Positions 32,377-61,624 of a stretch of DNA of 64,000 nt are shown here, one piece after another. Below the pieces are notes generated by a model. It had not been told where the DNA came from. It saw nothing but the letters and a program-made list of their open reading frames with translations, and did not search any database. Each line of letters begins with the position of its first letter. The first letter of the stretch is position 1. The DNA lies in assembly GCA_017656425.1 (NCBI GenBank), contig JACDNV010000010.1, forward strand, positions 22,521 to 86,520, read 5' to 3'. This DNA is from Candidatus Neomarinimicrobiota bacterium. GTDB taxonomy: Bacteria > Fidelibacterota > UBA2242 > B5-G15. The translations under genes were made by a program, and so were the position numbers.

Positions 32377-32958
32377 ATGTATAATGAGATTGTAAATGAG
32401 GTTGAATATACCGAAAAAATTGTTGATTCGAAATTTCTCGGTTATGTTTATAAAATACAGACTAAAAATGAGGGTTATGGTAAAATAGAAAAGGTAAAGA
32501 AAATGCATCCAAAAGCTACTCATGTATGCTGGGCAATGCGATACTTGGACCAAGATACCGGACAATTGTATTATTATTTTGATGATGCGGGAGAACCTTC
32601 TGGTACAGCAGGTAAACCTATATTAAAAGTACTGAGTAACAGGGGTTTAGTAAATTTGATCTGCATTGTTGTTAGGTATTTTGGCGGAACAAAACTTGGT
32701 AAAGGGGGACTGATAAGAGCATACAGTAATATAACGACAAGAACCGTAGAGAAGGCGGGAATTACTGCGTATGAGAAAATAATAAAAGATTGTTTTTACG
32801 TTGGTTATAAAGAACTGCCCAATATTGTAAATATATTAAGGTCTAACAATCTAGATTATAACCTAGATTATAAAGAGGATGTGGTAAAGATTACAACTGA
32901 GATAAAAGAATCTTTGTATAAGAAATTAAAAAATAAACTGAGTGTGTTATCAAAATAA
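32377..32958 (+). CDS. YigZ/IMPACT family protein
   Basis: This is a 193-aa protein of the YigZ (UPF0029, Impact N-terminal) family, whose bacterial role is not well defined though nucleic acid or ribosome association has been proposed. The signature segments DDAGEPSGTAGKPIL and VVRYFGGTKLGKGGLIRAY are intact, and a DUF1949-like C-terminal part follows. It begins one base after the peptidase gene. A structured RNA begins immediately after its stop. Confidence 0.92.
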   Translation: MYNEIVNEVEYTEKIVDSKFLGYVYKIQTKNEGYGKIEKVKKMHPKATHVCWAMRYLDQDTGQLYYYFDDAGEPSGTAGKPILKVLSNRGLVNLICIVVRYFGGTKLGKGGLIRAYSNITTRTVEKAGITAYEKIIKDCFYVGYKELPNIVNILRSNNLDYNLDYKEDVVKITTEIKESLYKKLKNKLSVLSK

Positions 32959-32963
32959 AAGAT

Positions 32964-33127
32964 CCTGCAATGGCAAAGTGAGATTAACTGGAACCCAGCT
33001 TAGTCACGGTGGGTGCCTCCCGAGCGGTTCAAGCTTCCTCGACGAAGAGGCCTGCTTTCCGCGCCCGGAGTTGAGCTCCCTTTCTTGTGGTGTTGGTCCC
33101 AGCAATACAGCACTTTGCCATTGCAGG
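32964..33127 (+). ncRNA. Rod-shaped structured RNA, 6S RNA-like architecture
   Basis: A GC-rich island of 164 bases stands out from its AT-rich surroundings and folds into one long rod. The ends pair perfectly over 17 bp (32964-32980 with 33111-33127). A second helix is 32988-32995 (CTGGAACC) with 33095-33102 (GGTCCCAG). A roughly 15-base bubble on each side follows, then GGG/CCC (33011-33013, 33078-33080), CTCC/GGAG (33017-33020, 33067-33070), GCGG/CCGC (33024-33027, 33059-33062), AAGC/GCTT and a CCTC/GAGG hairpin tip. Closing stem, central bubble and terminal stem-loop match the layout of 6S RNA, which binds RNA polymerase. I see no SRP, RNase P or tmRNA signatures. Strand is chosen from gene context; the palindromic fold alone does not decide it. 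Confidence 0.6.
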
Positions 33128-33904
33128 AAGCTCTATTTATTCATTCTGTTTTCAATTACCGCAAATTTAATATAAGTAGTCTACTACATAACATCAAGAG
33201 GTATTTTAAGTTTCCTAATATTTTTTATACATGTGTAAATGTTTATACTTGTACAAAAGCATTTATAGGTTCATTCAATTTAAAGAGATAATTATAAAAG
33301 TGGAGTTGACTAAATTCGAGTTTGGATAAACATTAATAAAATATTTATTGTTTCTAAAGCCATTAATTAAGGAAATTTTAATTAAAAAGAGTGTTAGAAA
33401 AATTTAATTATATAGTGATAAAGAACTAAGAAAAGTTTGAGAAATTTGATATTGTTGGAGATAATATCAAATGTATGGTAATAGGATATATAAGAGGTGA
33501 ATTTAATTGCAGAAATTTAAAAGCAGATTTTTAACAAAATAATATATACCGGGTGACAAAGGGTGGTTATATATTAGATGCCGATATTTCTATATATACG
33601 CTCGATTATACATCCTGGAAAGAGAGCATTATGGCAGGAAAGCCCTTAAGAGAAATTTTTAGGATAGTTATAAATAATATTTGAGTCTCATTTAAAAATG
33701 TGATTATAGTTAGTGATAATATAAACACTGATAGAATGGTACGATTAATCCTGGTATGAGCACATGTCTGGTAAAAACAGATAAATATTGATGTATTTAA
33801 TAAAGCCATGATAAAGTCTCAATTTATCCTTGATTCTATAAAAAGTCTTAAAGATATTATCGATTGCTAAATTGTATGATCATGCACAGAGGAGGGTGTG
33901 AGTG
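33128..33904. other. AT-rich intergenic stretch without a recognised gene
   Basis: About 780 bases with no convincing coding sequence. A 9-bp inverted repeat with a 9-base loop lies at 33445-33471 (TTTGATATT / AATATCAAA) without a T run. A 43-codon open frame from GTG 33553 to 33684, after which the same frame stays readable past one stop, may be a gene remnant, but I recognise no family. The end carries GGAGG at 33891-33895 for the next gene. Confidence 0.5.
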
Positions 33905-35420: not shown

Positions 35421-36485
35421 ATGAAAATAGCTATGATGAGCCTGTGGAATGCTGCTAATGGACCTTCTATTCATGCGGAATTGGTTGGTCGGTCATGGGT
35501 AGAGCTTGGTCATAAATTAATAGTATTTTCAGCAATTGAACATCCAGATGCCAGACCAACCGGGCAAATGGATGAGGAGTACGTTATAAGAAATTTTTCT
35601 GTGAAAAATGTGCATCCATATACACGGGCTTCTTATTTTGATCCCAGTTCAATTTTTGAAAGCAACTATGAAGTTTTTGTAGCTCAAAATGTGGAGAGGC
35701 TACCTGCGGAGAAACTGTTAGAGATATGGCATAATATTAAGGAAAAGGCAAAGACAATAATGGTTGTACACGAAGGGAAAGCTCCTGATGATCCACTTTA
35801 CTATAAATTCGATTGGGATGCTATCGTATGTTTCGATGATAGGTATAGGGAGTTCCTTGTCAAATACTGGAGTGAGGAGATAATTCATAAGATACCTTAT
35901 CCATATGCTCCATATAAACCAGGAGATAAAATAAAGGCAAGGCAGAAGTTGGGATTGAAACATAATCAAAAAATTGTATTTTCCTTTGGTTTTCGTGCTG
36001 ACGATATTTTACCCGTTTTACCTGCTTTAAAGAAATTAAGCAGTGATTTTGATTTAAAATACTTAGTGGTATTAAATCCTGAATGTAATTGGAAAATTGT
36101 TGATGAGCAAAGGAAAGAATATGATTTTCTTGATTTAAAAATAAAAGCATTAGCCATTGATGAAATATATACTTATCTATATGCTTCTGATGCACTGCTA
36201 ATACATAGGGAAAGCAATAAAAAATATAAGGCTGTAATTTCAAGTACTGTGTGCCAGGTGCTCGGGGCGGGGTGTCCAATAGTCTTTCATGATTCAAATT
36301 ACATTGAAACTTATGGTAATGAAATTATTAAATATAAAGACAGTGAGGATCTTGTTGAGAAGTTGAAGAAACTTTTTGTCGAAGGTTTTGATAGAGAAAT
36401 TGTAAAGAAATTCCTGGAGAAAAATAACTGTTATGAAGTTGCTAAGAGATTTATAAATATTTTTAAGGGTTTATTGGAGGGATGA
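35421..36485 (+). CDS. Glycosyltransferase (GT-B fold, GT4-like)
   Basis: This is a 354-aa cytoplasmic protein with a glycosyltransferase layout. The N-terminal half (KIAMMSLWNAANGPSIHAELV, LGHKLIVFSAIE) resembles acceptor-binding Rossmann folds. The C-terminal half has LGLKHNQKIVFSFGF, a donor-domain strand pattern, and VISSTVCQVLGAGCPIVFHDS, where EX7E-type enzymes carry the nucleotide-sugar site. The classical pair of glutamates is not clear. The gene is four bases upstream of the GH130 phosphorylase gene and translated with it, suggesting mannoside or other glycan turnover. Donor and acceptor are unknown. Confidence 0.7.
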   Translation: MKIAMMSLWNAANGPSIHAELVGRSWVELGHKLIVFSAIEHPDARPTGQMDEEYVIRNFSVKNVHPYTRASYFDPSSIFESNYEVFVAQNVERLPAEKLLEIWHNIKEKAKTIMVVHEGKAPDDPLYYKFDWDAIVCFDDRYREFLVKYWSEEIIHKIPYPYAPYKPGDKIKARQKLGLKHNQKIVFSFGFRADDILPVLPALKKLSSDFDLKYLVVLNPECNWKIVDEQRKEYDFLDLKIKALAIDEIYTYLYASDALLIHRESNKKYKAVISSTVCQVLGAGCPIVFHDSNYIETYGNEIIKYKDSEDLVEKLKKLFVEGFDREIVKKFLEKNNCYEVAKRFINIFKGLLEG

Positions 36486-36488
36486 ATT

Positions 36489-37661
36489 ATGGAAAGAATG
36501 AAAATTGAATTGAAAAACTTTGATGATGGTGAAATTATAAAATTTGGTGGCGAATACTACATGTTTAAGCTAAACAGTTTTAATGGAAATCCTGTTGTAA
36601 AACCTGAAGATCTTGGGCTTGTCTGGCAAGATAAGGACGAAGTAAAAATTGGGGCAGTGTTTAATGGAGGTGCAGATATTTTTGATAATAAGGTGATTTT
36701 AACGCCTCGTTGTCATAGGGGTTATTATAAAACGAAATGGTTTGATCCAAAATTGGGTTTTGAAAGAACGATACTTGAAAACTACATTTCAGAGGTATGG
36801 ATGTTGGAAAGTGAGGATGGAATTAATTTTAAAGTGAGGGATGATGTCGTAATAAAGGGTGACGGAACCGAACATGGAGATTTTATGTATGGAATTGAGG
36901 ATATAAGGATTATAAAGACAAAGGGGAAATATCTATTAATATTAATAGGGTGTGGTAAGGTAAAACCACCTTTTAAAGGTGAAAACGCCGACAGAGTTGC
37001 TATATATAGTACCGAAGACTTTAATAAAATTGAATATCATGGCATTATCTCATCGTTTGATTCAAGAAATGCAATATTACTTGAACATGATAAAGGTTAT
37101 TATATGTTTTTGCGATTTCATCCAAATATATATCTGGTAAAATTTGATGACCTTGATGTACTATTAGAACCAAAAGTAAATAAGGAGTTCTGGGATAATG
37201 TATATGAACATAAAGAAAGATATTTCTTCCTTGGAATAGGGGACTATCCACACGAAAAAGAGAAAATTGGTCCTGGTACTCAGTTGATTTTAACGAATGA
37301 GGGATGGTTATTTATTTATCATGCTGTCGGCAGAATCGATAAAGAGATATGTCGGCAATATGGATTAAATGAGGGTATTGATAGAGGATATAGCGTTAAT
37401 ATTGCACTTTTAGATTATGATAATCCAGCGAGAATAATAGCGCGTTCGAAGTTTCCGTTTTATATCCCGGGTAAACCATACGAACTTTATGGGGATACAG
37501 ATTATCCGGTTGACGTTCCTGCGGTCGTTTTTCCTATGGGGGCGTTTGCTATTGAAAATAAGCTATTTATTTATGCAGGTAGTGGGGATAAATACGAAAT
37601 TCTTTTGAGTTGCGATGTTGAAATGCTTGTGGATTTTATGTGCAGGTATTACAGGAGATAA
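36489..37661 (+). CDS. GH130 family beta-mannoside phosphorylase-like protein
   Basis: GH130 enzymes phosphorolyse beta-1,4-linked mannosides or mannosyl-glucose with inversion, conserving energy as mannose 1-phosphate. The 390-aa protein shows the five-bladed propeller pattern and the motifs FNGGADIFDNKVILTPRCHRG, the active-site GIEDIRI with D138 as likely proton donor, IGPGTQLILTNEGWLFIYHA and the C-terminal PVDVPAVVFPMGA. It has no signal peptide, so substrates must enter the cell. It is paired with the glycosyltransferase upstream. Confidence 0.85.
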   Translation: MERMKIELKNFDDGEIIKFGGEYYMFKLNSFNGNPVVKPEDLGLVWQDKDEVKIGAVFNGGADIFDNKVILTPRCHRGYYKTKWFDPKLGFERTILENYISEVWMLESEDGINFKVRDDVVIKGDGTEHGDFMYGIEDIRIIKTKGKYLLILIGCGKVKPPFKGENADRVAIYSTEDFNKIEYHGIISSFDSRNAILLEHDKGYYMFLRFHPNIYLVKFDDLDVLLEPKVNKEFWDNVYEHKERYFFLGIGDYPHEKEKIGPGTQLILTNEGWLFIYHAVGRIDKEICRQYGLNEGIDRGYSVNIALLDYDNPARIIARSKFPFYIPGKPYELYGDTDYPVDVPAVVFPMGAFAIENKLFIYAGSGDKYEILLSCDVEMLVDFMCRYYRR

Positions 37662-37816: not shown

Positions 37817-38463
37817 AAAAATTAATTAAAAATGTGGAGTGTAGAATTAAGGATTAGAAGAAAAGTATATTTTCTAATTGCCTGTTATTCCAAATTTAAT
37901 AACTGCACATTATTCATTTTCAATCTATAATTGAAAAAGGTTGTGGGTTCTCTCATGGGATCTTCGGGTGGGTTTTTTGATCCCTTCTGAAGATATTACA
38001 ACTCTACAGGTAAAGTTACAGTTTAGATATTGTTTGGATGGGATGTGATATATGTTATAAGGAGTCAAGAGTGATATATATAAACTGGTCAGATCAATTA
38101 CATTAACACATTAATTATCATGTGTACTCAGACTTAATGATACAGGATTGATTATCTCTATATGTTCAATGTTACCATAATAAATTAAAATTTTAATTAT
38201 GAAAGACTTATGGAATATAATTTCTGCGATAGCTGTGCTTTTTTAATTGCCACCTTTAAATCAATCGATTTTATTGCTCTCTATTATATGCATGGTTTTT
38301 CAAATAAATTAACAAAAAAATCCTTGACAAAAAAAACAGTTTAGTAAAATTAATTCAAGTTATAAAGGGGCAGAGAAAATTGTGGGGATGTGGGTTGGCG
38401 TTATATGAAACTATGATGTCGGATTAATAGTCCGACGGAAAAAAGAGAGAGGAGGGATTAGTC
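37817..38463. other. Intergenic region between tRNA-fMet and the peptide cluster
   Basis: Nearly 650 bases without a gene. Two mutually exclusive short stems overlap at 37957-37994: GGGATC/GATCCC (37957-37962 with 37979-37984) and ATCTTC/GAAGAT (37960-37965 with 37989-37994). The rest is AT-rich. A promoter-like pair is at 38324-38350, and an untranslated leader of about 100 bases precedes the peptide gene, ending in GGAGGG. Confidence 0.5.
38324..38350 (+). promoter_or_regulatory. Sigma70-type promoter of the peptide cluster
   Basis: A perfect -35 hexamer TTGACA (38324-38329) is followed after 15 bases by TAAAAT (38345-38350). The spacer is short, but no other strong pair is nearby. Transcription would start near 38357 and give a leader of about 100 bases before the precursor peptide. 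Confidence 0.55.
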
Positions 38464-38667
38464 GTGAAAAGATTAGTATTCATTCTATTCCTAATTTTGT
38501 TATTATCGTTTACGTTTGTACCATTATCAAATGCTTGGGTTGCTATGAGTGTTGCATTGAAACTACCTGATCCAATGAGTCAACTTGGATTTGGAATGGT
38601 AGGTGTTTATTGGGGTTATGTAGCAGGCCTAGCCTCCGGTTTGGCAGGAGCAATTGTTGCAGCATAA
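38464..38667 (+). CDS. Sec-type precursor of a hydrophobic peptide, bacteriocin-like
   Basis: This is a 67-aa protein with a clear signal peptide: basic start, hydrophobic core (LVFILFLILLLSFTFV) and SNA before residue 25. Cleavage there leaves a 43-residue core rich in Gly, Ala and aromatic residues (QLGFGMVGVYWGYVAG, then GLASGLAGAIVAA) with few charges. The start is GTG 38464 behind a strong GGAGGG. It heads a cluster with a SpoIIM/DUF95-like protein, further membrane proteins and an ABC ATPase, an arrangement typical of circular bacteriocins. The peptide matches no family I can name, and cyclisation is a hypothesis. It might instead be a signalling peptide or small membrane protein. Confidence 0.7.
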   Translation: MKRLVFILFLILLLSFTFVPLSNAWVAMSVALKLPDPMSQLGFGMVGVYWGYVAGLASGLAGAIVAA

Positions 38668-39209
38668 TTATAGCAAAAAAATCCTTTTTAGTAAAAATTA
38701 TTAAATTAAGTTTTAGAACAAGAATTTGTTTTGCCTTTCTGCTGTTCGCTTTTGGATTATTAGTAAGTGGGTTTATTAAAATAGGTATTCATGAAGATTT
38801 AGTAATTCAGAAAAAAATTGATATTAATAGTAATACTCTGTTTGTAAGAATTTTTGTTAATAATTTATTAGTAATACTGATCAATATTTCGGGATGCTAT
38901 ATATTTGGATTAACTCCAATATTTTCACTTATTTCCAATGGATTTTTTATAGGATTCTGGTTAAAATTTGCCATGTTAAATATCGAAAACTGGCACATTT
39001 TTTTATTAAAAAAATTTATGCCGCACAGTATTGAAATCATTGGGATCATATTAAGCGGAGCAATTGGTATAAAGGGAGTAAAAAGATTCTACATAAAAAG
39101 TTTCAATCCATCTATTGAACTAACGGAGAGTAAATTTGAAATAATTTTTTCAATATTAATAATTACACTATCAGCTTTAATCGAGGCTTATGTATCTGCA
39201 AAATTATAA
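38610..39209 (+). CDS. SpoIIM/DUF95-like membrane protein
   Basis: This is a polytopic membrane protein whose core resembles the SpoIIM (stage II sporulation M, DUF95) family: FVRIFVNNLLVILINISG, YIFGLTPIFSLISNGFFIG and PHSIEIIGIILSGAIGIKG. Family members recur in circular bacteriocin loci, where they help maturation or export. The start is a problem: the only conventional start codon in frame is ATG 38610, inside the precursor gene in another frame, giving an odd, non-conserved N-terminus. After the precursor stop at 38665-38667 only ATA or ATT codons are available. Homology begins near 38740, so the true N-terminus is uncertain. Confidence 0.65.
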   Translation: MGLCSRPSLRFGRSNCCSIIIAKKSFLVKIIKLSFRTRICFAFLLFAFGLLVSGFIKIGIHEDLVIQKKIDINSNTLFVRIFVNNLLVILINISGCYIFGLTPIFSLISNGFFIGFWLKFAMLNIENWHIFLLKKFMPHSIEIIGIILSGAIGIKGVKRFYIKSFNPSIELTESKFEIIFSILIITLSALIEAYVSAKL

Positions 39210-39783
39210 GGATTTATTTGGTAAACTTTTGGACAGGTATAAATACTTCGGTATCTTATTTCCTATTTTAGTTTCTATGTTATCTATTATTAATGTTGCT
39301 CTTATTTCAGGAAAGATTAGAAGTGCTCAATTCGATTATTATTTTAAACCTTTTTTCTACATTACAATATTTAACATACCCTTTACTATTCTTATTCTGT
39401 GGTTACTTATGACGTCTCTCTTGAATTTCATTGATAATATTTTGATGCAATTAGACGAAGAAAAAAATTTCTCCAGGCTTTTTCTGGGGATTGGTTACGG
39501 TTTCATATTTTTCTTTCTTTCTCAATTTTATACTTTTTACCTGTTCAAATTTAAAATTGGTGACATTTTAGAAATAAATGGTTTGACCGGATTGGTTAGT
39601 CAATATGGATTTAATAAAATAAATACAATTGCGTTTTTTCTTTTTAGCCTGTGGTGTGTATTTATAAACAGAATAATTTATAGAACAAAAATATATATAG
39701 ACGTTTTGATATTGGTTCTTATTAATTCTTTGTATTTCTTCCTAAGTTTATTACGATCATTATGGCAAAATACATTAAGTTGA
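39190..39783 (+). CDS. Polytopic membrane protein of the peptide cluster
   Basis: This is a 197-aa protein with about five hydrophobic helices (for example ILFPILVSMLSIINVALI and PFTILILWLLMTSLLNFI). I recognise no family with confidence; the general look recalls Yip1-type or DUF95-associated membrane proteins. Its ATG overlaps the SpoIIM-like gene by 20 bases and its end overlaps the next gene by 22, so the products are probably made together and may form one complex. Confidence 0.65.
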   Translation: MYLQNYKDLFGKLLDRYKYFGILFPILVSMLSIINVALISGKIRSAQFDYYFKPFFYITIFNIPFTILILWLLMTSLLNFIDNILMQLDEEKNFSRLFLGIGYGFIFFFLSQFYTFYLFKFKIGDILEINGLTGLVSQYGFNKINTIAFFLFSLWCVFINRIIYRTKIYIDVLILVLINSLYFFLSLLRSLWQNTLS

Positions 39784-40259
39784 TTATATATTGCATTAAA
39801 TATAATCTTAGAAAAAATTACAACAATGAAACATTCTTTGATTCATTTTACAGAAATTTGATATTTTACTCGACATGGATAACTGTAGTATTTATGCTGT
39901 ATTTGTTTAAGGTATATAATAGATCACTTCTTCAGATATTTATTTATGCATTGATAATTTTTATAATATTCTTACTGAATAGATGGAAATCAAAATCTCT
40001 TCGTTTACCATTTATATCCATAGCGTTTCTACCTAAAGGTAAAAGGTTTTTAATATTTTACGAAATATTAATTAATATATTTTCGCTATCTTTTATTTCA
40101 AGTGCTTTAATTTCTCTTTTATTTCCTCTGTATAACGACATCCCCTTTTCCCTTTTATTAATAATATTAGCCAATGTAATTTCTATAACTACATTAGTCA
40201 TAAGGAGAAAGTCCGAAGGATCTCTTTTGAGAAATGAAATTTATAGATTTTATTATTAA
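39762..40259 (+). CDS. Membrane protein of the peptide cluster
   Basis: This is a 165-aa protein with about four hydrophobic segments (IFIYALIIFIIFLLN, LLLIILANVISITTLV) and a basic C-terminus. Family unknown. Overlapping reading frames on both sides tie it to the cluster. By position it may be one half of an ABC export permease whose other half is the next gene, or an immunity protein. Confidence 0.6.
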   Translation: MAKYIKLIIYCIKYNLRKNYNNETFFDSFYRNLIFYSTWITVVFMLYLFKVYNRSLLQIFIYALIIFIIFLLNRWKSKSLRLPFISIAFLPKGKRFLIFYEILINIFSLSFISSALISLLFPLYNDIPFSLLLIILANVISITTLVIRRKSEGSLLRNEIYRFYY

Positions 40260-40944
40260 GGAAACACATAGATGTAATTATCTTAGAAAATCCTATTATC
40301 TTATGATGGTATTATTACTTTTTCTGATTTCAATGGGTATATTAAAAGTATTCACTCCACTTTTAACAAGTTTACCCGAGGAGATTGTTGTCTGTATGTC
40401 TCCTTTTATCCCGTACTCTATCTGCCTTTTTTTATTTAATACGTTTTTACCAACAAAATCAAGGTCGATAGCTTTCTGGCTAACAGTGCCATATGGATTC
40501 CATTATATCTTCAGGAGATCGTTTTTATATTCTCTTATTATATACTCTTTATTTTCTTTATTATTAGCTTTATTGTGGGGTTTTTCTTCCTATATATGCA
40601 TAAGTACTCTGATTATATATAATATCTGGCTTTTTTCCTGCCTGGTTTTGATTGTTTATTTACAGCCAATAGATCCGTATAGCAAATTATTTTATAAATT
40701 AAATTTCAGGATTGCCGGGTATAATCTTTTGAATTCATTTCCAGCAATTTCATATATGTATTCTGTATATCTTTTGATTATGTTAAAAAAAGAGACTTTA
40801 GAGGTATATCTAAATAGATATGAAAGTGCAATAATTGTGTCATTGTTCTTATTTTCTATACTGAATACTTATCTAATCTTACTTTTATCAAGAAAGTATG
40901 TATTAAACAACAAAAGTAGAATATTTGTGAGGATGAAATTATGA
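40234..40944 (+). CDS. Putative ABC transporter permease of the peptide cluster
   Basis: This is a 236-aa protein with about six hydrophobic segments and little else recognisable (LYSLFSLLLALLWGFSSY region, LFLFSILNTYLILLLS near the end). It ends four bases into the ABC ATPase gene (ATGA overlap), so it is the best candidate for the membrane partner of that ATPase. It may export the mature peptide or give self-protection. Confidence 0.6.
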   Translation: MKFIDFIIKETHRCNYLRKSYYLMMVLLLFLISMGILKVFTPLLTSLPEEIVVCMSPFIPYSICLFLFNTFLPTKSRSIAFWLTVPYGFHYIFRRSFLYSLIIYSLFSLLLALLWGFSSYICISTLIIYNIWLFSCLVLIVYLQPIDPYSKLFYKLNFRIAGYNLLNSFPAISYMYSVYLLIMLKKETLEVYLNRYESAIIVSLFLFSILNTYLILLLSRKYVLNNKSRIFVRMKL

Positions 40945-41585
40945 TAAGTTTGTCAAGTCTGTATTATAAAATTGGAAATTTTGAATTAAAGATACCTGAG
41001 CTAATTTTTGCAAAGGGTAAGATATATAAAATAAAAGGTGGGAATGGCTCCGGGAAAACAACGCTACTCAGACTCATATGTGGATTATATAGACAAAACT
41101 CTGGCAGAATTGAAATCTTCGGAGCAAGCAATCAAGATGAAAATTGGTTATATAGGGCAGGAATATACTTGGACGAAAGTTTCCTGATTGACTATTTGAC
41201 TCCTCTTGAGTTTCTAAATTTTAAGGGTTTATTTTATAAAATAAAACCAGTAGTAATAGATAAATTTTCAAACGAAATTAATGAATCCATTTCATATAAG
41301 CTTTTTTCTAACGAGAAACTAATAAGGGAATTGTCGCAAGGAAATAAAAAGAAAGTTGGTATTTACTCTTCATTTATGCACGATCCTGAAATATTAATCT
41401 TCGATGAACCATTTGAAGGGCTGGATGAAAAAGGACGGTTTCTCTTGATTAAATTATTAAGTGAAAAAATTTGCGATAGAATAGGTATTATCACTGTACA
41501 TCATGAGGTAGATTTAAAGGGTTCTATTAAGGAAGGTGAGATTGTGGAATTAGAGATGAAAAATGGTTCACTGAGTTATAGCTAA
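40941..41585 (+). CDS. ABC transporter ATP-binding protein
   Basis: This is a 214-aa ATPase. Walker A is KGGNGSGKTTLLRL, the signature is LSQGNKKKVG (Q in place of the usual S/G, as in many export ATPases), Walker B with D-loop is EILIFDEPFEGLDE, and the switch histidine lies in ITVHHEVD. The size fits peptide or antibiotic exporters with separate permeases. It closes the cluster started by the precursor peptide. Confidence 0.88.
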   Translation: MISLSSLYYKIGNFELKIPELIFAKGKIYKIKGGNGSGKTTLLRLICGLYRQNSGRIEIFGASNQDENWLYRAGIYLDESFLIDYLTPLEFLNFKGLFYKIKPVVIDKFSNEINESISYKLFSNEKLIRELSQGNKKKVGIYSSFMHDPEILIFDEPFEGLDEKGRFLLIKLLSEKICDRIGIITVHHEVDLKGSIKEGEIVELEMKNGSLSYS

Positions 41586-41634: not shown

Positions 41635-42441
41635 TCACATTAATGAGCTGTCCAAAAATAGCATTACGAAAAATCCAATAAAAAAGGAAAAAGTAATAAG
41701 GATTTCATTTTCCTGCTTTTTGTAAATTTCAGGTATCATTTCCTTTATTGTTACATATAGCATTGCGCCACCTGCAAATCCAAGACCATATGGTAACAAA
41801 AATGAAAAATATTTAAAAAATATGGCACCAACAACTGCCATAACCAGTTCAGAAAATCCACTTAAAACGCCAATCAGTATAGGGACAATTCTCTTGCCTG
41901 TTATCATTGCCATTGGTAACGCTATTACAGTTCCCTCAGGTATGTCCTGAATTCCAATTGCGAGAGCAGTCAATAATCCCAATCTTTTATCAAAGGCAAT
42001 AGAGGTTCCCACTGCCAGCCCTTCGGGTAAGTTATGGATTATCACCGCCAGTGTTATTAGCCAGACCACTTTTATTTTTTCTTTATATTCATCACTTCCT
42101 TCGTAGCCTTTTAATATGTGTTCATGAGGGACATTCTTTTCTATGAAATATATCAGCAATATTCCCAAAACTATTCCGATCCCGACTGGATAAAATTTCC
42201 CTGCCTTTTCTATGCCAGGGAGAATAAGACTTGTAAAGCTCGCTACGATCATGACACCCGCGGCAAAAGATAGACTTACCTCAGTTCCCTTTGATGACAT
42301 CTTAGTAGAGAAAATTGCGAACAGTGCTCCAAGTGAGGTAAGTCCCATAACCAGCAGTCCAGCATATAGTGAAATTAATATTATATTGCCGGATGCGATT
42401 TTAATTACATTGTTAACAAGTCCCTGAAATAATCCTTCCAT
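41635..42441 (-). CDS. ZIP family metal transporter
   Basis: This is a divalent metal (usually zinc) transporter of 268 aa with about eight membrane helices. The helix IV motif HNLPEGLAVGTSIA and helix V motif QDIPEGTVIAL are present; the latter has QD where many members have HE. A short loop with histidine (NVPHEHILKGYEGSDE) lies between. It is convergent with the peptide cluster and monocistronic. Confidence 0.9.
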   Translation of the reverse strand: MEGLFQGLVNNVIKIASGNIILISLYAGLLVMGLTSLGALFAIFSTKMSSKGTEVSLSFAAGVMIVASFTSLILPGIEKAGKFYPVGIGIVLGILLIYFIEKNVPHEHILKGYEGSDEYKEKIKVVWLITLAVIIHNLPEGLAVGTSIAFDKRLGLLTALAIGIQDIPEGTVIALPMAMITGKRIVPILIGVLSGFSELVMAVVGAIFFKYFSFLLPYGLGFAGGAMLYVTIKEMIPEIYKKQENEILITFSFFIGFFVMLFLDSSLM

Positions 42442-42628: not shown

Positions 42629-43011
42629 GTTTCGAGCGTCAGCGAAGCAGCCTGCCCCCTCACTGTCGTTGCGAGCGTAAGCGAAGCAATCTGCACTGAA
42701 AGAGTGCGCCAGTAACAGCTATGGGTTGCTTTTCCATACTGTCCTCTGTTTTTCAGGTTAGATTGCCACGTCGCTCACTGGCGTTCGCTCCTCGCAATGA
42801 CGTGGCAGGGTCCCCCACACCCGTCGTTGCGAGCGTAAGCGAAGCAATCTGCACTGAAAGAGTGCGCCAGTAACAGCTATGGGTTGCTTTTCCATACTGT
42901 CCTCTGTTTTTCAGGTTAGATTGCCACGTCGCTCACTATTGTTCGCTCCTCGCAATGACGTGGCAGGGTCCCCCATACCCGTCGTTGCGAGCGTAAGCGA
43001 AGCAATCTGCC
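42629..43011. repeat. GC-rich palindromic repeat in tandem copies of 158 bp
   Basis: GTCGTTGCGAGCG recurs at 42665, 42823 and 42981, an exact period of 158 bases; a diverged start copy lies at 42629. Each full unit begins with the GTCGTTGCGAGCGTAAGCGA arm and ends with an inverted, related arm (ATTGCCACGTCGCTCAC ... CTCGCAATGACGTGGCA), so each unit can fold into a long imperfect hairpin. The two full units differ by only a few bases. The pattern is like the dispersed TTGCGAGGAGCG / GACGTGGCAATC elements seen in many bacteria, and is far richer in GC than the surroundings. The rest of 42442-43133 is AT-rich and holds the phosphoketolase ribosome binding site (AGGAGGAG). Confidence 0.9.
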
Positions 43012-43133
43012 ATGAAAGAGCACCCATCAGTTAGCAGGTTTTATCTAAAAATACATATCCAGTTTACTTTATTCATATTGCTTTAATCGAAAATAGGTTT
43101 TACTTTATAGCAAATTGATAGGAGGAGATAATA

Positions 43134-54327: not shown

Positions 54328-57300
54328 GTTTTAAGCCTACCTATGAGGAATTGAAACACTCTTGGTCAAATTCTGGTATGGATAAATCCAATTGTTTTAA
54401 GCCTACCTATGAGGAATTGAAACTTCCTCTCCTGCTACGGGAGAGGTAGCGATTTTTGACCGTTTTAAGCCTACCTATGAGGAATTGAAACTCTTGTATA
54501 TTCTTATAATGATAATTTTGGTTTACATGTTTTAAGCCTACCTATGAGGAATTGAAACGAAGATGAGAACGAGGTAAATAACTATGATAAATTGGGTTTT
54601 AAGCCTACCTATGAGGAATTGAAACATTACTGGGAGTTGAATGAAAGATTTAAGAGATTTTTGTTTTAAGCCTACCTATGAGGAATTGAAACGTTTTTCA
54701 TGTTCTTTCATTTTATTCCTCACTAATTGAGTTTTAAGCCTACCTATGAGGAATTGAAACTGTGTTTTTTTCATTTTATCTGCCTTTTTTAATATAGTTT
54801 TAAGCCTACCTATGAGGAATTGAAACGTAGGACAAATTCACGATTCAATTTTAATTGATGTTAAGTTTTAAGCCTACCTATGAGGAATTGAAACGCAGAA
54901 CAGAAAGAAAATAAACTAAAGATTTCAGATGTTTTAAGCCTACCTATGAGGAATTGAAACCTATCGCTCTATACTTCTCTCCATTCCATTCACCTAGTTT
55001 TAAGCCTACCTATGAGGAATTGAAACGAGATAGGTGATAAAGGATATATGAAGCAATTTATTTACGTTTTAAGCCTACCTATGAGGAATTGAAACACCTC
55101 CGAACTTCAGACTTCACTTTTACCAAATATTGTTTTAAGCCTACCTATGAGGAATTGAAACAAGATTCCTGAAACCTTAGAATTGATAAGACAGGAAGTT
55201 TTAAGCCTACCTATGAGGAATTGAAACATTAGTTGTTCTTTCGATTTGTATCCCGCATAAACACGTTTTAAGCCTACCTATGAGGAATTGAAACCCTATT
55301 TCTGCATACTCACCATATATGGAATTTCTGGTTTTAAGCCTACCTATGAGGAATTGAAACTAAATCCTCTTGTTCATACCAACTACCATCAACAGGGGTT
55401 TTAAGCCTACCTATGAGGAATTGAAACACGAAATTGTTAAGAAAGTAAGTGTTGTAGACTTGAGTTTTAAGCCTACCTATGAGGAATTGAAACCTATCTA
55501 ATTCCTTAGGATTAACATCAATTAAAATGTTTTAAGCCTACCTATGAGGAATTGAAACTGTCCTGAATGACTTTTTTCTTATGATTTTCCCAGTTGTTTT
55601 AAGCCTACCTATGAGGAATTGAAACTCAAACTTCATAATATTAAAACTGAAAAAAGGAAAAGGTTTTAAGCCTACCTATGAGGAATTGAAACTCATCAGG
55701 AGGAGATTTGAAACCCCCCATTCCGTAAGGGTTTTAAGCCTACCTATGAGGAATTGAAACAGTATACCGAGAGTATTAAAGCCAACATAATTCCTAGTTT
55801 TAAGCCTACCTATGAGGAATTGAAACTGACTATGAATTAGAAAATCGAGTAAAAGTATTATCGTTTTAAGCCTACCTATGAGGAATTGAAACAAATTTTT
55901 ATTATGTTATCTATTTTTCTTTGGTTATCGTTTTAAGCCTACCTATGAGGAATTGAAACGAAGGTGCTATTGGTATATTGAAATCCTCATATAATTGTTT
56001 TAAGCCTACCTATGAGGAATTGAAACTCGTTCCACCTGAAATACTCTTTTTTTCAGTCCCTGGTTTTAAGCCTACCTATGAGGAATTGAAACCAGGTGTT
56101 CCAAATCGAAATTATATTCTGTTTCATACAGTTTTAAGCCTACCTATGAGGAATTGAAACTCAACAACTTTTTCTCCAGTTCCCCGGAGGAATATGGTTT
56201 TAAGCCTACCTATGAGGAATTGAAACTTGAATACCTTTATCATTTGCATAATCACCTATTGTGTTTTAAGCCTACCTATGAGGAATTGAAACATGAAAGA
56301 ATTCAAAGATATAGCAGTTAAGATCGATGTTTTAAGCCTACCTATGAGGAATTGAAACCCAGTGCTTGCAGTCTTTATTATCTTATTAGCACCGTTTTAA
56401 GCCTACCTATGAGGAATTGAAACCCTTAATAGTTTCTTTTTTGAAATTCATTTTACTCTGTTTTAAGCCTACCTATGAGGAATTGAAACCTTTTCAAAGA
56501 CCAGGGGCTGGTGCAAAATTTTTTGAGTTTTAAGCCTACCTATGAGGAATTGAAACATAGTATAAGTTCCATCTCCATTATTAGTTATTGTTCCAGTTTT
56601 AAGCCTACCTATGAGGAATTGAAACCCTGTATCTATTTGAGAAATAACTCCACTATCACTTACGTTTTAAGCCTACCTATGAGGAATTGAAACCCCTCCT
56701 TCTGGGAATTCGTTCAACGGTATTGTGATGTTTTAAGCCTACCTATGAGGAATTGAAACCGTCCCAAGCTATATTCCCTTGAGCCAAACTACCAGGTTTT
56801 AAGCCTACCTATGAGGAATTGAAACTGATTTGATTTTAGATATTTGCTTTCTAACGGATTCTGTTTTAAGCCTACCTATGAGGAATTGAAACATTTCTTA
56901 AAGGAATCTAAGAAATACGAAAACGTTTGTTTTAAGCCTACCTATGAGGAATTGAAACAGTGAAAAATTGGACAACATAGCTGAAAAATTAGAAGTTTTA
57001 AGCCTACCTATGAGGAATTGAAACCTTTGGAGTTCCATTTCAATCCTAACCATTCAATGGTTGTTTTAAGCCTACCTATGAGGAATTGAAACCTTTGGAG
57101 TTCCATTTCAATCCTAACCATTCAATGGTTGTTTTAAGCCTACCTATGAGGAATTGAAACCTTCTCTCGGTGCAGCATATTATATGTATAATGATATGTT
57201 TTAAGCCTACCTATGAGGAATTGAAACTGTGTAGTGAAGCTGTTATTATATACGAAAATGATGGTTTTAAGCCTACCTATGAGGAATTGAAACATAAACA

Positions 57301-60294
57301 TCACATTTAGGATAAGTCCATACAAACCCTGTTTTAAGCCTACCTATGAGGAATTGAAACAATTATGGACAAGAAGGAACTCCAACTCTTGATGCTGGGT
57401 TTTAAGCCTACCTATGAGGAATTGAAACAATATTTTGGGAAATATAAAAAAGCACCTTTTAATCTTCGTTTTAAGCCTACCTATGAGGAATTGAAACGAA
57501 TATGTGTGGTTTCGTGGGCTATAGATTCCAATAGTTTTAAGCCTACCTATGAGGAATTGAAACTCCTCTTGGCGGTCATATTCATTTTAGTATTCCGCCG
57601 TTTTAAGCCTACCTATGAGGAATTGAAACACAAAAGATGTTATTAATGTAAATAGTGAAGGCGGGGTTTTAAGCCTACCTATGAGGAATTGAAACAAATC
57701 ATAATAATTTTGGGTACTGCAGATTGTATTAGTTTTAAGCCTACCTATGAGGAATTGAAACACTATGTTATCAAATTGTTTTAATAACGTTTAATAAGTT
57801 TTAAGCCTACCTATGAGGAATTGAAACACCTGAATTATATTACTTGGAGGACCAAAATGAGAGGTTTTAAGCCTACCTATGAGGAATTGAAACGCTAAAA
57901 TTCCAACAATAAACAATTTGTATGGATGTGTTTTAAGCCTACCTATGAGGAATTGAAACTGGTTTTTATTTTGCCATAATTTTAATTCTAATTTTGTTTT
58001 AAGCCTACCTATGAGGAATTGAAACTATGCAATCTTGAACAATTCAAATAGTTTATCCCCAAGTTTTAAGCCTACCTATGAGGAATTGAAACAGATTCGT
58101 TCCAGATATAAAGATTACGAAGCTATCAAAGTTTTAAGCCTACCTATGAGGAATTGAAACTTGGTTCTTTTTTATTCTTTTCCCAGCTAATAACCCAAAG
58201 TTTTAAGCCTACCTATGAGGAATTGAAACAATGCTACTACCTATGGTCAGATTTGTAAATCTTTGGGTTTTAAGCCTACCTATGAGGAATTGAAACCCTC
58301 TCTGTCTTCATATTCCCCTTCGGGAATTTCAAGTTTTAAGCCTACCTATGAGGAATTGAAACTCCTCTTTAACAGAAGATTTTAATAAAGATGAAATAAG
58401 TTTTAAGCCTACCTATGAGGAATTGAAACCAAAAGGTTCTTTTCCAGAGTGAGAAACGGTCAAAGTTTTAAGCCTACCTATGAGGAATTGAAACCCCAAT
58501 TTCTGTTTAGGATACCATCCATTCTTCATTGTTTTAAGCCTACCTATGAGGAATTGAAACATAGATAATAAACTACGTGTAACACATCCAAGACATTCGT
58601 TTTAAGCCTACCTATGAGGAATTGAAACCCTATTTCTGCATACTCACCATATATGGAATTTCTGCGTTTTAAGCCTACCTATGAGGAATTGAAACCATTT
58701 TTGAGGCTCTATCAGTTGAAATGCATACTGGAGTTTTAAGCCTACCTATGAGGAATTGAAACCAGTTTATAAAGGTTATGGTGATCCTACGAAGAAAGAG
58801 GTTTTAAGCCTACCTATGAGGAATTGAAACTATATTCTTTTATCAATTCCTTCGGTTTGACTTTTTCGTTTTAAGCCTACCTATGAGGAATTGAAACCCA
58901 CAAAATATGTCCCTTTCCCCTCCAGTTTCCCTAAGTTTTAAGCCTACCTATGAGGAATTGAAACCTGTATAGTATATGATGAATCACGGAAAGGTAGTAT
59001 AGGTTTTAAGCCTACCTATGAGGAATTGAAACGAAAACTTTTTATATAACTGGATTTCATTTCCTCTAAAGTTTTAAGCCTACCTATGAGGAATTGAAAC
59101 ACTTAGGCTCTCATCAGTTTCCTTTTTTATTCTTATTGTTTTAAGCCTACCTATGAGGAATTGAAACTCAAAAGGACGTGATGGAGCTCGTTTAATATAT
59201 GGTATGTTTTAAGCCTACCTATGAGGAATTGAAACGGAGGACCTTAAAATGGCAAAAGTAGAGTACTCAGCAGTTTTAAGCCTACCTATGAGGAATTGAA
59301 ACTATACTAAAGCGTATTTTTCGTCTTCAATTATAGCACGTTTTAAGCCTACCTATGAGGAATTGAAACATGACTGGGTTGACAATTCATCTGAGAATGT
59401 GAGTAGTTTTAAGCCTACCTATGAGGAATTGAAACTCTGATAGAATTCATAAGTGTCCTAAATGTGGAATTGGTTTTAAGCCTACCTATGAGGAATTGAA
59501 ACACCCAATCTTTGACTTTATAGAAGTTGTATCCGATGTTTTAAGCCTACCTATGAGGAATTGAAACGCAGTTAGATTATAATTTCCTAAATCAACGTCT
59601 TGGTTTTAAGCCTACCTATGAGGAATTGAAACAGAAGGAAAAGGATTGGATTAAAGTTTTTCCAGAAAGGTTTTAAGCCTACCTATGAGGAATTGAAACT
59701 GGTATAGTTTTTGTAAGCATACCATAGGAAATTGTGTTTTAAGCCTACCTATGAGGAATTGAAACGAAGCTTGGAGTTTGGTAAATAATATCAAGGATTA
59801 TTTGTTTTAAGCCTACCTATGAGGAATTGAAACCAAATACTTCTTACTTTTAATATCAGGTATCTTATGTTTTAAGCCTACCTATGAGGAATTGAAACAC
59901 TGTTGCCCTAAATCTGTCCATGTAAGGCCGTAGTGTTTTAAGCCTACCTATGAGGAATTGAAACTACGATGTGGGAGTAAATTGGACTGATTTAGGACAG
60001 GTTTTAAGCCTACCTATGAGGAATTGAAACGTTTTAAGGCTTTTATTCCAGCTTCGCAAACCTGCGTTTTAAGCCTACCTATGAGGAATTGAAACCCTGA
60101 TTCAATATCTGATCTTAATATTATTCGTTATGTTTTAAGCCTACCTATGAGGAATTGAAACGAGGAAATTAGAAAAATATCTAAAGAGGGAACTATGGTT
60201 TTAAGCCTACCTATGAGGAATTGAAACATTTTCGGCACAAACTTATTTATTGGAAAAATACTTTGTTTTAAGCCTACCTATGAGGAAATGCAAA
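54328..60294 (+). CRISPR. CRISPR array A, 90 repeats of 30 bp
   Basis: I count 90 copies of a 30-base repeat that begins GTTTTAAGCC and ends ATTGAAAC, spaced about 66-68 bases apart, giving 89 spacers of about 35-38 bases. All copies appear identical until the last (60265-60294), where the 3' end TTGAAAC has changed to ATGCAAA, as expected at the leader-distal end. Two adjacent spacers are identical (57025-57062 and 57093-57130), and one spacer sequence recurs far apart with a one-base longer version (55295-55330 and 58629-58665). The ATTGAAAC end predicts the 8-nt crRNA handle. The count was made by eye. Confidence 0.97.
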
Positions 60295-60373
60295 AAGCGA
60301 GCAAGCTATCAAACCAGTCTCTTTGAGACCCTCCGAAGGAGTTCTATCGAACCTTCGGGGCAAGCCAGCAAGC
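60295..60373 (+). repeat. 79-bp double-hairpin element, copy 1
   Basis: This sequence sits directly after the degenerate last repeat of array A and recurs at 61625-61703 after array B with three differences. It contains GTCTC-TTT-GAGAC and a strong bulged hairpin, CCGAAG-ga-GTTC-TATC-GAAC-CTTCGG, and ends GCCAGCAAGC. It is much richer in GC than most spacers. It could be a small palindromic repeat element or a terminator for array transcripts. Confidence 0.85.
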
Positions 60374-60462
60374 AAGTAAAGTTGTATTGCTATCTTTGAG
60401 GAAAATATAAACAGTGAACAAGCTAAAAAGCTTGCAAGCCTTTAAGCCTGCTAGCTATTAAG
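60374..60462 (+). repeat. Decayed CRISPR repeats between the arrays
   Basis: Traces of the CRISPR repeat can be read here. 60379-60412 ends CTTTGAGGAAAATATAAAC, close to the repeat's 3' half. Near 60440 CTTTAAGCCTGCTAGCTAT resembles its 5' half. I infer an old, eroded part of the array around the hairpin element. Confidence 0.6.
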
Positions 60463-61624
60463 GTTTTAAGCCTACCTATGAGGAATTGAAGCCCAAATTA
60501 TTAAACGATATTTTGTCGAGTAATTTGTGTTTTAAGCCTACCTATGAGGAATTGAAACGAAGCATAATCCCTATCGAAATAGAGAATAGAGAAGTTTTAA
60601 GCCTACCTATGAGGAATTGAAACACCAATCCCAATCTTTTTTATGAAAAAGGCTTTTTCCTAGTTTTAAGCCTACCTATGAGGAATTGAAACTTACACCA
60701 CCTAATATACTTTTAACAGAACATCCCCTTGTTTTAAGCCTACCTATGAGGAATTGAAACTCTAATGGATTGTATGAAGTTGAAATAAAACTAAAAGGTT
60801 TTAAGCCTACCTATGAGGAATTGAAACCTTCATAATTCTGGAGAGTATCACTTTCGAAATCAGCGTTTTAAGCCTACCTATGAGGAATTGAAACTCACTT
60901 ATCCAAGTCCCTGATCGCATATGTCGATTAGTTTTAAGCCTACCTATGAGGAATTGAAACACCATAATTATCCCTCCTTTCTAATTTGCATTATATGTTT
61001 TAAGCCTACCTATGAGGAATTGAAACTCGCCTGAATATCCATTTTCAAAATATATATAATCTGTTTTAAGCCTACCTATGAGGAATTGAAACTTTGCACC
61101 GTCCATTTTTCAGCATTTACCTCGATTTCGTTTTAAGCCTACCTATGAGGAATTGAAACACAGGTTCTCCCCTAGCAAACCTACTGCCATAGCTATGAGT
61201 TTTAAGCCTACCTATGAGGAATTGAAACTCAGGTAAAGAACGTTTAATCTGGTCTTTGTATTTTTCAAGTTTTAAGCCTACCTATGAGGAATTGAAACTT
61301 CTGCTTCTTTCCGTGATTTGCAATGAAAGAGAGCGTTTTAAGCCTACCTATGAGGAATTGAAACTCTCATCATATGACGATAAAACTGCATTTGTTGAAT
61401 GTTTTAAGCCTACCTATGAGGAATTGAAACTTGAAAACAAATAGTGCCTCTAAGTGATTCACACCGTTTTAAGCCTACCTATGAGGAATTGAAACATATA
61501 AACGTGAATGCCCGCAGGATAATATTCATTGTTTTAAGCCTACCTATGAGGAATTGAAACTTATCCTAATGATTAGGATTTACTATCCTATCGTGTTTTA
61601 AGCCTACCTATGAGGAATTGAAAC
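60463..61624 (+). CRISPR. CRISPR array B, 18 repeats of 30 bp
   Basis: Eighteen repeats of the same 30-base sequence give 17 spacers. The first repeat (60463-60492) has G for A at position 29 (TTGAAGC); the others appear intact, including the last at 61595-61624. There is no cas-side leader of its own, only the 168 bases of element and decayed repeats after array A, so this is probably the older end of one array cut off by an insertion or rearrangement. A copy of the 79-bp element follows at once. Confidence 0.95.

Follow-up and report, generated by a model that had tools for sequence, protein, structure and literature searches.

A six-gene cluster was identified at positions 38464-41585 of a 64,000-nucleotide stretch (the window) of contig JACDNV010000010.1, from a Candidatus Neomarinimicrobiota bacterium (assembly GCA_017656425.1). 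The cluster is read here, with moderate confidence, as a bacteriocin-type cluster organised like circular-bacteriocin loci, in which a SpoIIM protein, an ATP-binding cassette (ABC) ATPase and three membrane proteins (TM1, TM2 and TM3) export a hydrophobic peptide, protect against it, or both. The minimal gene set for circular bacteriocins in published searches is a precursor, SpoIIM and an ABC ATPase (PMC8534725, PMC8659200), and all three are present. A sequence-only reading of this DNA had named SpoIIM/DUF95 with an ABC ATPase as the hallmark of such loci, which agrees with the published set. For the peptide system itself, secretion, cleavage site, killing activity, immunity and circularity are putative. 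More tentatively, these genes may define a new family of mini-bacteriocins from a diderm lineage that depend on SpoIIM and are possibly circular. In that family the leader would stay fixed while the active core and the N-terminus of SpoIIM are exchanged as a pair, and the SpoIIM N-terminus would accordingly recognise the core and set export or immunity specificity.

The six open reading frames (ORFs) lie head to tail on the plus strand, and successive genes overlap by 4-26 nt from SpoIIM onward. The ORFs reported earlier were all recovered at the same coordinates and on the same strand, with one start codon corrected. The run is not a chance arrangement because it recurs in a relative, described below, where the peptide gene has a single in-frame codon indel and keeps its leader. 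The features of the region are as follows.

38318-38463, plus strand: promoter-like region and conserved 5' untranslated leader, aligned in the B62_G9 relative and in an orphan copy at contig C4
38464-38667, plus strand: 67-amino-acid precursor peptide gene, leader 1-24 and core 25-67 (Shine-Dalgarno sequence, GTG/ATG start, conservation in the B62_G9 relative)
38697-39209, plus strand: SpoIIM (PF01944/DUF95) membrane protein (Pfam 3.6e-14), start between about 38682 and 38706
39190-39783, plus strand: polytopic membrane protein TM1, 197 amino acids (hydrophobic segments, faint Yip1-like trace)
39762-40259, plus strand: polytopic, strongly cationic (+14) membrane protein TM2, 165 amino acids (hydrophobic segments, no family match)
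40234-40944, plus strand: polytopic cationic (+14) membrane protein TM3, 236 amino acids (hydrophobic segments, no family match)
40941-41585, plus strand: ABC ATPase (PF00005, 1.7e-20)
41635-42441, minus strand: ZIP metal transporter, convergent neighbour (PF02535, 1.1e-21)

A pattern scan of 84,980 species genomes, which detects close relatives only (more distant ones may exist), returned one relative. This was contig QNBN01000143.1 of a metagenome-assembled genome labelled Spirochaetes bacterium B62_G9, and it carries the complete set of six genes, ordered as in the window. TM1, TM2, TM3 and the ABC ATPase are 94-96% identical to their B62_G9 homologues, with 0.04-0.11 synonymous substitutions per site (dS). 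The genes mutS, porV-like and NFACT, which flank the B62_G9 cluster, have homologues in the window's genome that are saturated at synonymous sites. The low dS of the cluster against these saturated housekeeping genes therefore shows recent horizontal transfer of the block. The ZIP gene shows 98-100% nucleotide identity to QNBN01000143.1 up to the contig end, and its protein is 95% identical to that of B62_G9 compared with 74% to that of the same-family genome G001. As judged from these alignments, the recent move between the two lineages took in the cluster and, at a minimum, the 3' end of ZIP. The G+C content is 24-27% from SpoIIM to TM3 compared with 34% for the window. Genome G001 was considered as a clean empty site and rejected: the GH130 pair is conserved, other genes come after it and ZIP lies elsewhere. 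The GH130 gene and the gene preceding it (window 35421-37661) are syntenic with positions 544-2780 of the compared G001 stretch, after which the genes differ.

The similarity to B62_G9 is not uniform. In the front segment, up to about 38860, identity drops to 60-80% within the hairpin part of the 5' untranslated region (5'UTR), the peptide core and the first 60 SpoIIM residues. Those 60 residues are identical at 36 positions, compared with 106 of 113 in the remainder of the protein (p 9e-8). The front segment has a dS of 0.47-0.58, a synonymous excess over the remainder with p 9e-11. Such dense synonymous change argues therefore for an exchanged older allele and not only for faster protein evolution. 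The core and the SpoIIM N-terminal third thus appear, by sequence, to have been swapped as one unit behind the fixed leader. Their coupling may reflect function, with the SpoIIM N-terminus recognising the core, or simple adjacency.

The precursor shows the same division. Residues 1-24, MKRLVFILFLILLLSFTF, form a Sec-like leader with a candidate cut between SNA and W. The leader has the n-h-c layout of signal peptides and small residues at -3 and -1 (S and A). Between the window and B62_G9, 22 of 24 leader residues are identical compared with 17 of 43 in the core (residues 25-67; Fisher p=2.5e-5). This break in conservation coincides with the boundary between the Sec-like leader and the 43-residue core proposed from the sequence alone. 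PDPMSQ, a YW pair and VAG are kept in both cores. The likeness of the terminal GLAGAIVAA to the gassericin end did not hold, the B62_G9 homologue ending in ASVAVGL. Neutral to acidic in charge and, with a grand average of hydropathy of 1.0-1.1, very hydrophobic, the core is nearer to group ii circular bacteriocins than to AS-48. An AlphaFold model built from the two sequences gave two helices broken at PDP, with a mean predicted local distance difference test score (pLDDT) of 72 and about 60 for the second helix. Among the 245 genomes of the phylum set, the peptide was found in none of the others.

SpoIIM matched PF01944, the DUF95 profile, at 3.6e-14 and 53.4 bits (cut-off 26.9), in keeping with the earlier assignment, and the B62_G9 homologue matched at 1.8e-14. 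A TTG start at 38610 had been proposed and is unlikely, as the same frame in B62_G9 contains a TAA just past the peptide gene. No ATG, GTG or TTG start is common to both genomes, as noted for 38664-38710. The SpoIIM start therefore lies beyond about 38682 and may be a non-AUG codon, for instance ATT at 38697 or 38700, or be coupled to the peptide stop. A frameshift fusion of peptide and SpoIIM was ruled out by the in-frame stop in B62_G9. Within the 245 phylum genomes SpoIIM was above the cut-off in this one only; two sub-threshold matches (G020 and G022) proved to be unrelated 342-amino-acid membrane proteins. In a tblastn search of 7.3 Gb of plasmids only two Staphylococcus simulans plasmids covered most of SpoIIM, with an E-value of only 0.9, and a Ciceribacter plasmid match was not a SpoIIM gene. 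Alignment of this SpoIIM with that of S. simulans by hhalign gave 3.5e-7. The S. simulans SpoIIM is absent from the gene table of its own record. A profile was built from the SpoIIM proteins of seven clusters (AS-48, L. innocua, gassericin A, plantacyclin, L. paracasei, P. larvae and S. simulans). It aligned along this SpoIIM, through the NN, NG and PH...E positions, at 26.9 bits. This is consistent with descent within the bacteriocin branch, in a comparison set made up of bacteriocin-cluster SpoIIM proteins alone.

The ABC ATPase matched PF00005 at 1.7e-20. Its nearest NCBIfam models are CcmA, DrrA and lantibiotic-protection ATPases, all below cut-off. It is 25-32% identical to the ATPases of the AS-48, gassericin and S. 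simulans clusters, which is not specific. Prevotella and Bacteroides plasmid matches to the ABC ATPase were set aside, as they adjoin DUF5687 genes. The Yip1 trace in TM1 had E-values of 0.097 here and 0.12 in the B62_G9 relative, both far below cut-off. Circular-bacteriocin loci are expected to carry a small immunity protein, cationic and hydrophobic; TM2 is cationic and hydrophobic but has 165 residues and no family assignment. TM3 is a possible permease; its structure model (pLDDT 44) was too poor for a structure search. The ZIP gene is probably functionally outside the cluster, though its 3' end is inside the transferred block. The host is a diderm, as had been proposed, with five Omp85 matches in its genome. 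The sequence-only reading would have been refuted, in its own terms, if the membrane proteins matched an unrelated system already known for transport, gliding or sporulation; Pfam, NCBIfam, PHROGs and PADLOC gave no such match.

In the proposed mechanism the precursor, with its signal-like hydrophobic leader, would be cut near SNA/W (or between N and A) to give a peptide of 43-44 residues. In the mature peptide a short helix would be joined through a PDP turn to a single glycine-rich helix long enough to span a membrane, and the peptide would insert into or perforate the membranes of competitors. As has been proposed for the corresponding SpoIIM and ABC proteins of AS-48, gassericin A and leucocyclicin Q, SpoIIM, the ABC ATPase and TM1-TM3 would carry the peptide out and protect the producer. 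The same machinery may also ligate the peptide head to tail. The cluster moves between species, and the core and the SpoIIM N-terminal third would be exchanged as one allele with the leader remaining fixed.

The circular-bacteriocin reading was upheld in part. The gene trio, the SpoIIM alignment, the contrast between leader and core and the transfer speak for it; precursor homology, predicted core size and modelled shape do not. Circular-bacteriocin cores have 58 residues and more, about 58-71, and a saposin-like fold of four to five helices. Reported examples include cores of 61 and 71 residues (PMC11409674, PMC8534725). Several results weigh against the reading. A core of 43-44 residues, as a cut at SNA/W or between N and A would give, is below the known class size, and the model, of modest confidence, is a two-helix hairpin rather than a saposin fold. 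The 67-amino-acid precursor had no Pfam, NCBIfam or PHROG match and no plasmid match. The variability of the peptide is a single comparison of two known alleles, and the ratio of nonsynonymous to synonymous substitution in the core is 0.75, not above 1. TM1, TM2 and TM3 had no significant family in Pfam, NCBIfam, PHROGs or PADLOC, and TM1 and TM3, the two compared with the membrane proteins of the reference clusters, had no match there. Neither a peptidase nor a recognised immunity protein was present among the cluster genes. PF01944 also occurs outside bacteriocin loci in control genomes, so SpoIIM homology alone is non-discriminating. The cluster is not placed in the circular-bacteriocin class, since a search for precursor homology found none and since the predicted size and modelled shape do not fit.

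One alternative is a version of the bacteriocin reading, and its probability overlaps with that of the main one. In it, a linear hydrophobic bacteriocin or peptide (class II-like, with a glycine-rich helix) would be exported by Sec and cut by signal peptidase I at SNA/W. SpoIIM, the TM proteins and the ATPase would then act solely as a transporter devoted to immunity or extraction, and no circularisation would take place. This is a plausible, though not the expected, outcome. It draws on the signal-peptide layout of the leader with S at -3 and A at -1, on the modelled single helix of membrane-spanning length in the 43-44-residue core and on the lack of a ligase or peptidase gene in the cluster. 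SpoIIM beside a precursor, however, otherwise marks circular loci (PMC8659200, PMC13289728), and long hydrophobic leaders with P at -4 are found in circular precursors of the AS-48 type as well (PMC5695211); P20 takes that position here if the cut falls after N23. If the leader were instead a short MKR-type one, an approximately 64-residue circular core beginning LV would fit the class in size. The total of 67 residues allows this, leaders down to 2 residues are known (PMC6131525) and cerecyclin is cut after residue 4 (PMC8534725). It is nevertheless improbable, as residues 1-24 are conserved as a block whose boundary coincides with a signal-peptidase-like site.

The remaining explanations dispense with a bacteriocin. 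It is rather unlikely, but worth weighing, that the genes encode a non-antagonistic SpoIIM-type ABC transporter for lipid, cell-envelope or antibiotic export, the peptide being a small membrane subunit or regulatory peptide. The downstream proteins are all membrane proteins plus an ATPase, the nearest ABC matches include CcmA/DrrA and, among plasmids, DUF5687-linked Bacteroidota ATPases with ordinary neighbours, and many genomes carry PF01944 away from bacteriocin genes. A structural subunit would however be expected to be about as conserved as its partners, whereas the core is the least conserved part of the operon, and the patchy presence and recent transfer also argue against a transporter of this kind. 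A phage- or defence-related small membrane protein of the holin type with accessory genes is very improbable. The peptide gave a GTA_holin_3TM trace at E 0.11, but it had no PHROG match, PADLOC gave generic ABC matches only and the viral contigs searched held no relatives of SpoIIM or TM1.

Upstream of the cluster, TTGACA is found at 38324-38329 with TAAAAT 15 nt downstream, and both are conserved at three loci. A single promoter for the operon, as claimed earlier, is plausible on this basis, but a promoter scan with 16-18 nt spacing listed none upstream of the peptide gene. AGGAGGG (38450-38456) lies seven bases 5' of the GTG start. The 5'UTR contains a hairpin, GTCGGA/TCCGAC, at 38418-38436. 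A riboswitch was considered and rejected, with no Rfam match up to E 5 and weak covariation in three sequences. Homology in the three loci has its left edge just upstream of TTGACA. The promoter and 5'UTR (about 150 bp) recur once in the same genome, at contig C4:163089-163257 on the minus strand, 87-89% identical. This copy adjoins mutS and is followed by a broken coding junction with neither leader nor core, and it was therefore rejected as a second functional cluster. The intact B62_G9 cluster occupies this same neighbourhood, that of mutS, porV and NFACT. This suggests that the cluster was lost at one site and re-acquired at another. Right behind the ZIP gene, at window 42647-43020, is a tandem 158-bp repeat with the element CGTTGCGAGCGTAAGCGAAGCAATC. 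A resembling element, CATTGCGAGCG...GCAATCT, lies upstream of the contig C4 relic, and left of the B62_G9 cluster are other repeats common to the window's genome. These repeat elements are possible recombination sites of the island.

Elsewhere in the window, a very long CRISPR array (clustered regularly interspaced short palindromic repeats) was found at 54328-61624 on the minus strand. It has slightly more than 100 repeats of 30 nt at a period of about 66 nt (Rfam CRISPR-DR2). A 6S RNA was found at 32958-33132 on the minus strand (63.7 bits).

Nearly all known loci for circular bacteriocins come, to our knowledge, from Firmicutes. A large survey found a single Gram-negative circular-bacteriocin cluster, in Novosphingobium (PMC5695211). 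The cluster described here offers a starting point for finding peptide antimicrobials in a diderm lineage that has not been cultured. The literature has yet to settle whether SpoIIM serves cyclisation, export or immunity (PMC6131525), and a swapped core and SpoIIM N-terminal allele pair in otherwise near-identical operons amounts to a natural domain-swap experiment on its role.

The cluster was compared to four known systems. The S. simulans IVB6188 plasmid carries a 'putative cyclic bacteriocin' with the closest SpoIIM by coverage in the 7.3 Gb of plasmids, and a PHSI(I)E motif is common to both. That cluster differs in its annotated 73-amino-acid precursor and 560-amino-acid membrane protein, and its SpoIIM is just 30% identical. 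Cerecyclin (group 11, Bacillus cereus) has a precursor, DUF95 protein and ATPase together with a YIP1-family protein (PMC8534725), and TM1 here shows a sub-threshold Yip1 trace. Its leader has 4 residues and its core 71 (PMC8534725), compared with 24 and 43 here. Enterocin AS-48 and the AS-48-like cluster of L. innocua share with the present cluster a long hydrophobic leader, P near the cleavage site, SpoIIM and an ABC ATPase. Both are plasmid-borne. A large B protein (about 560 amino acids), a recognised small immunity protein and a cationic saposin-like core, which set these clusters apart, were not seen here. Gassericin A and plantacyclin (group ii) have a core of 58 residues, compared with 43-44 here, and in this cluster three unassigned membrane proteins lie between SpoIIM and the ATPase. 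The precursor sequences are unrelated and the host here is a diderm. Like the present cluster, gassericin A and plantacyclin combine a leader-bearing hydrophobic precursor, SpoIIM, an ABC ATPase and a permease (212-214 amino acids in those two, a possible one in TM3 here) in a compact operon on mobile DNA.

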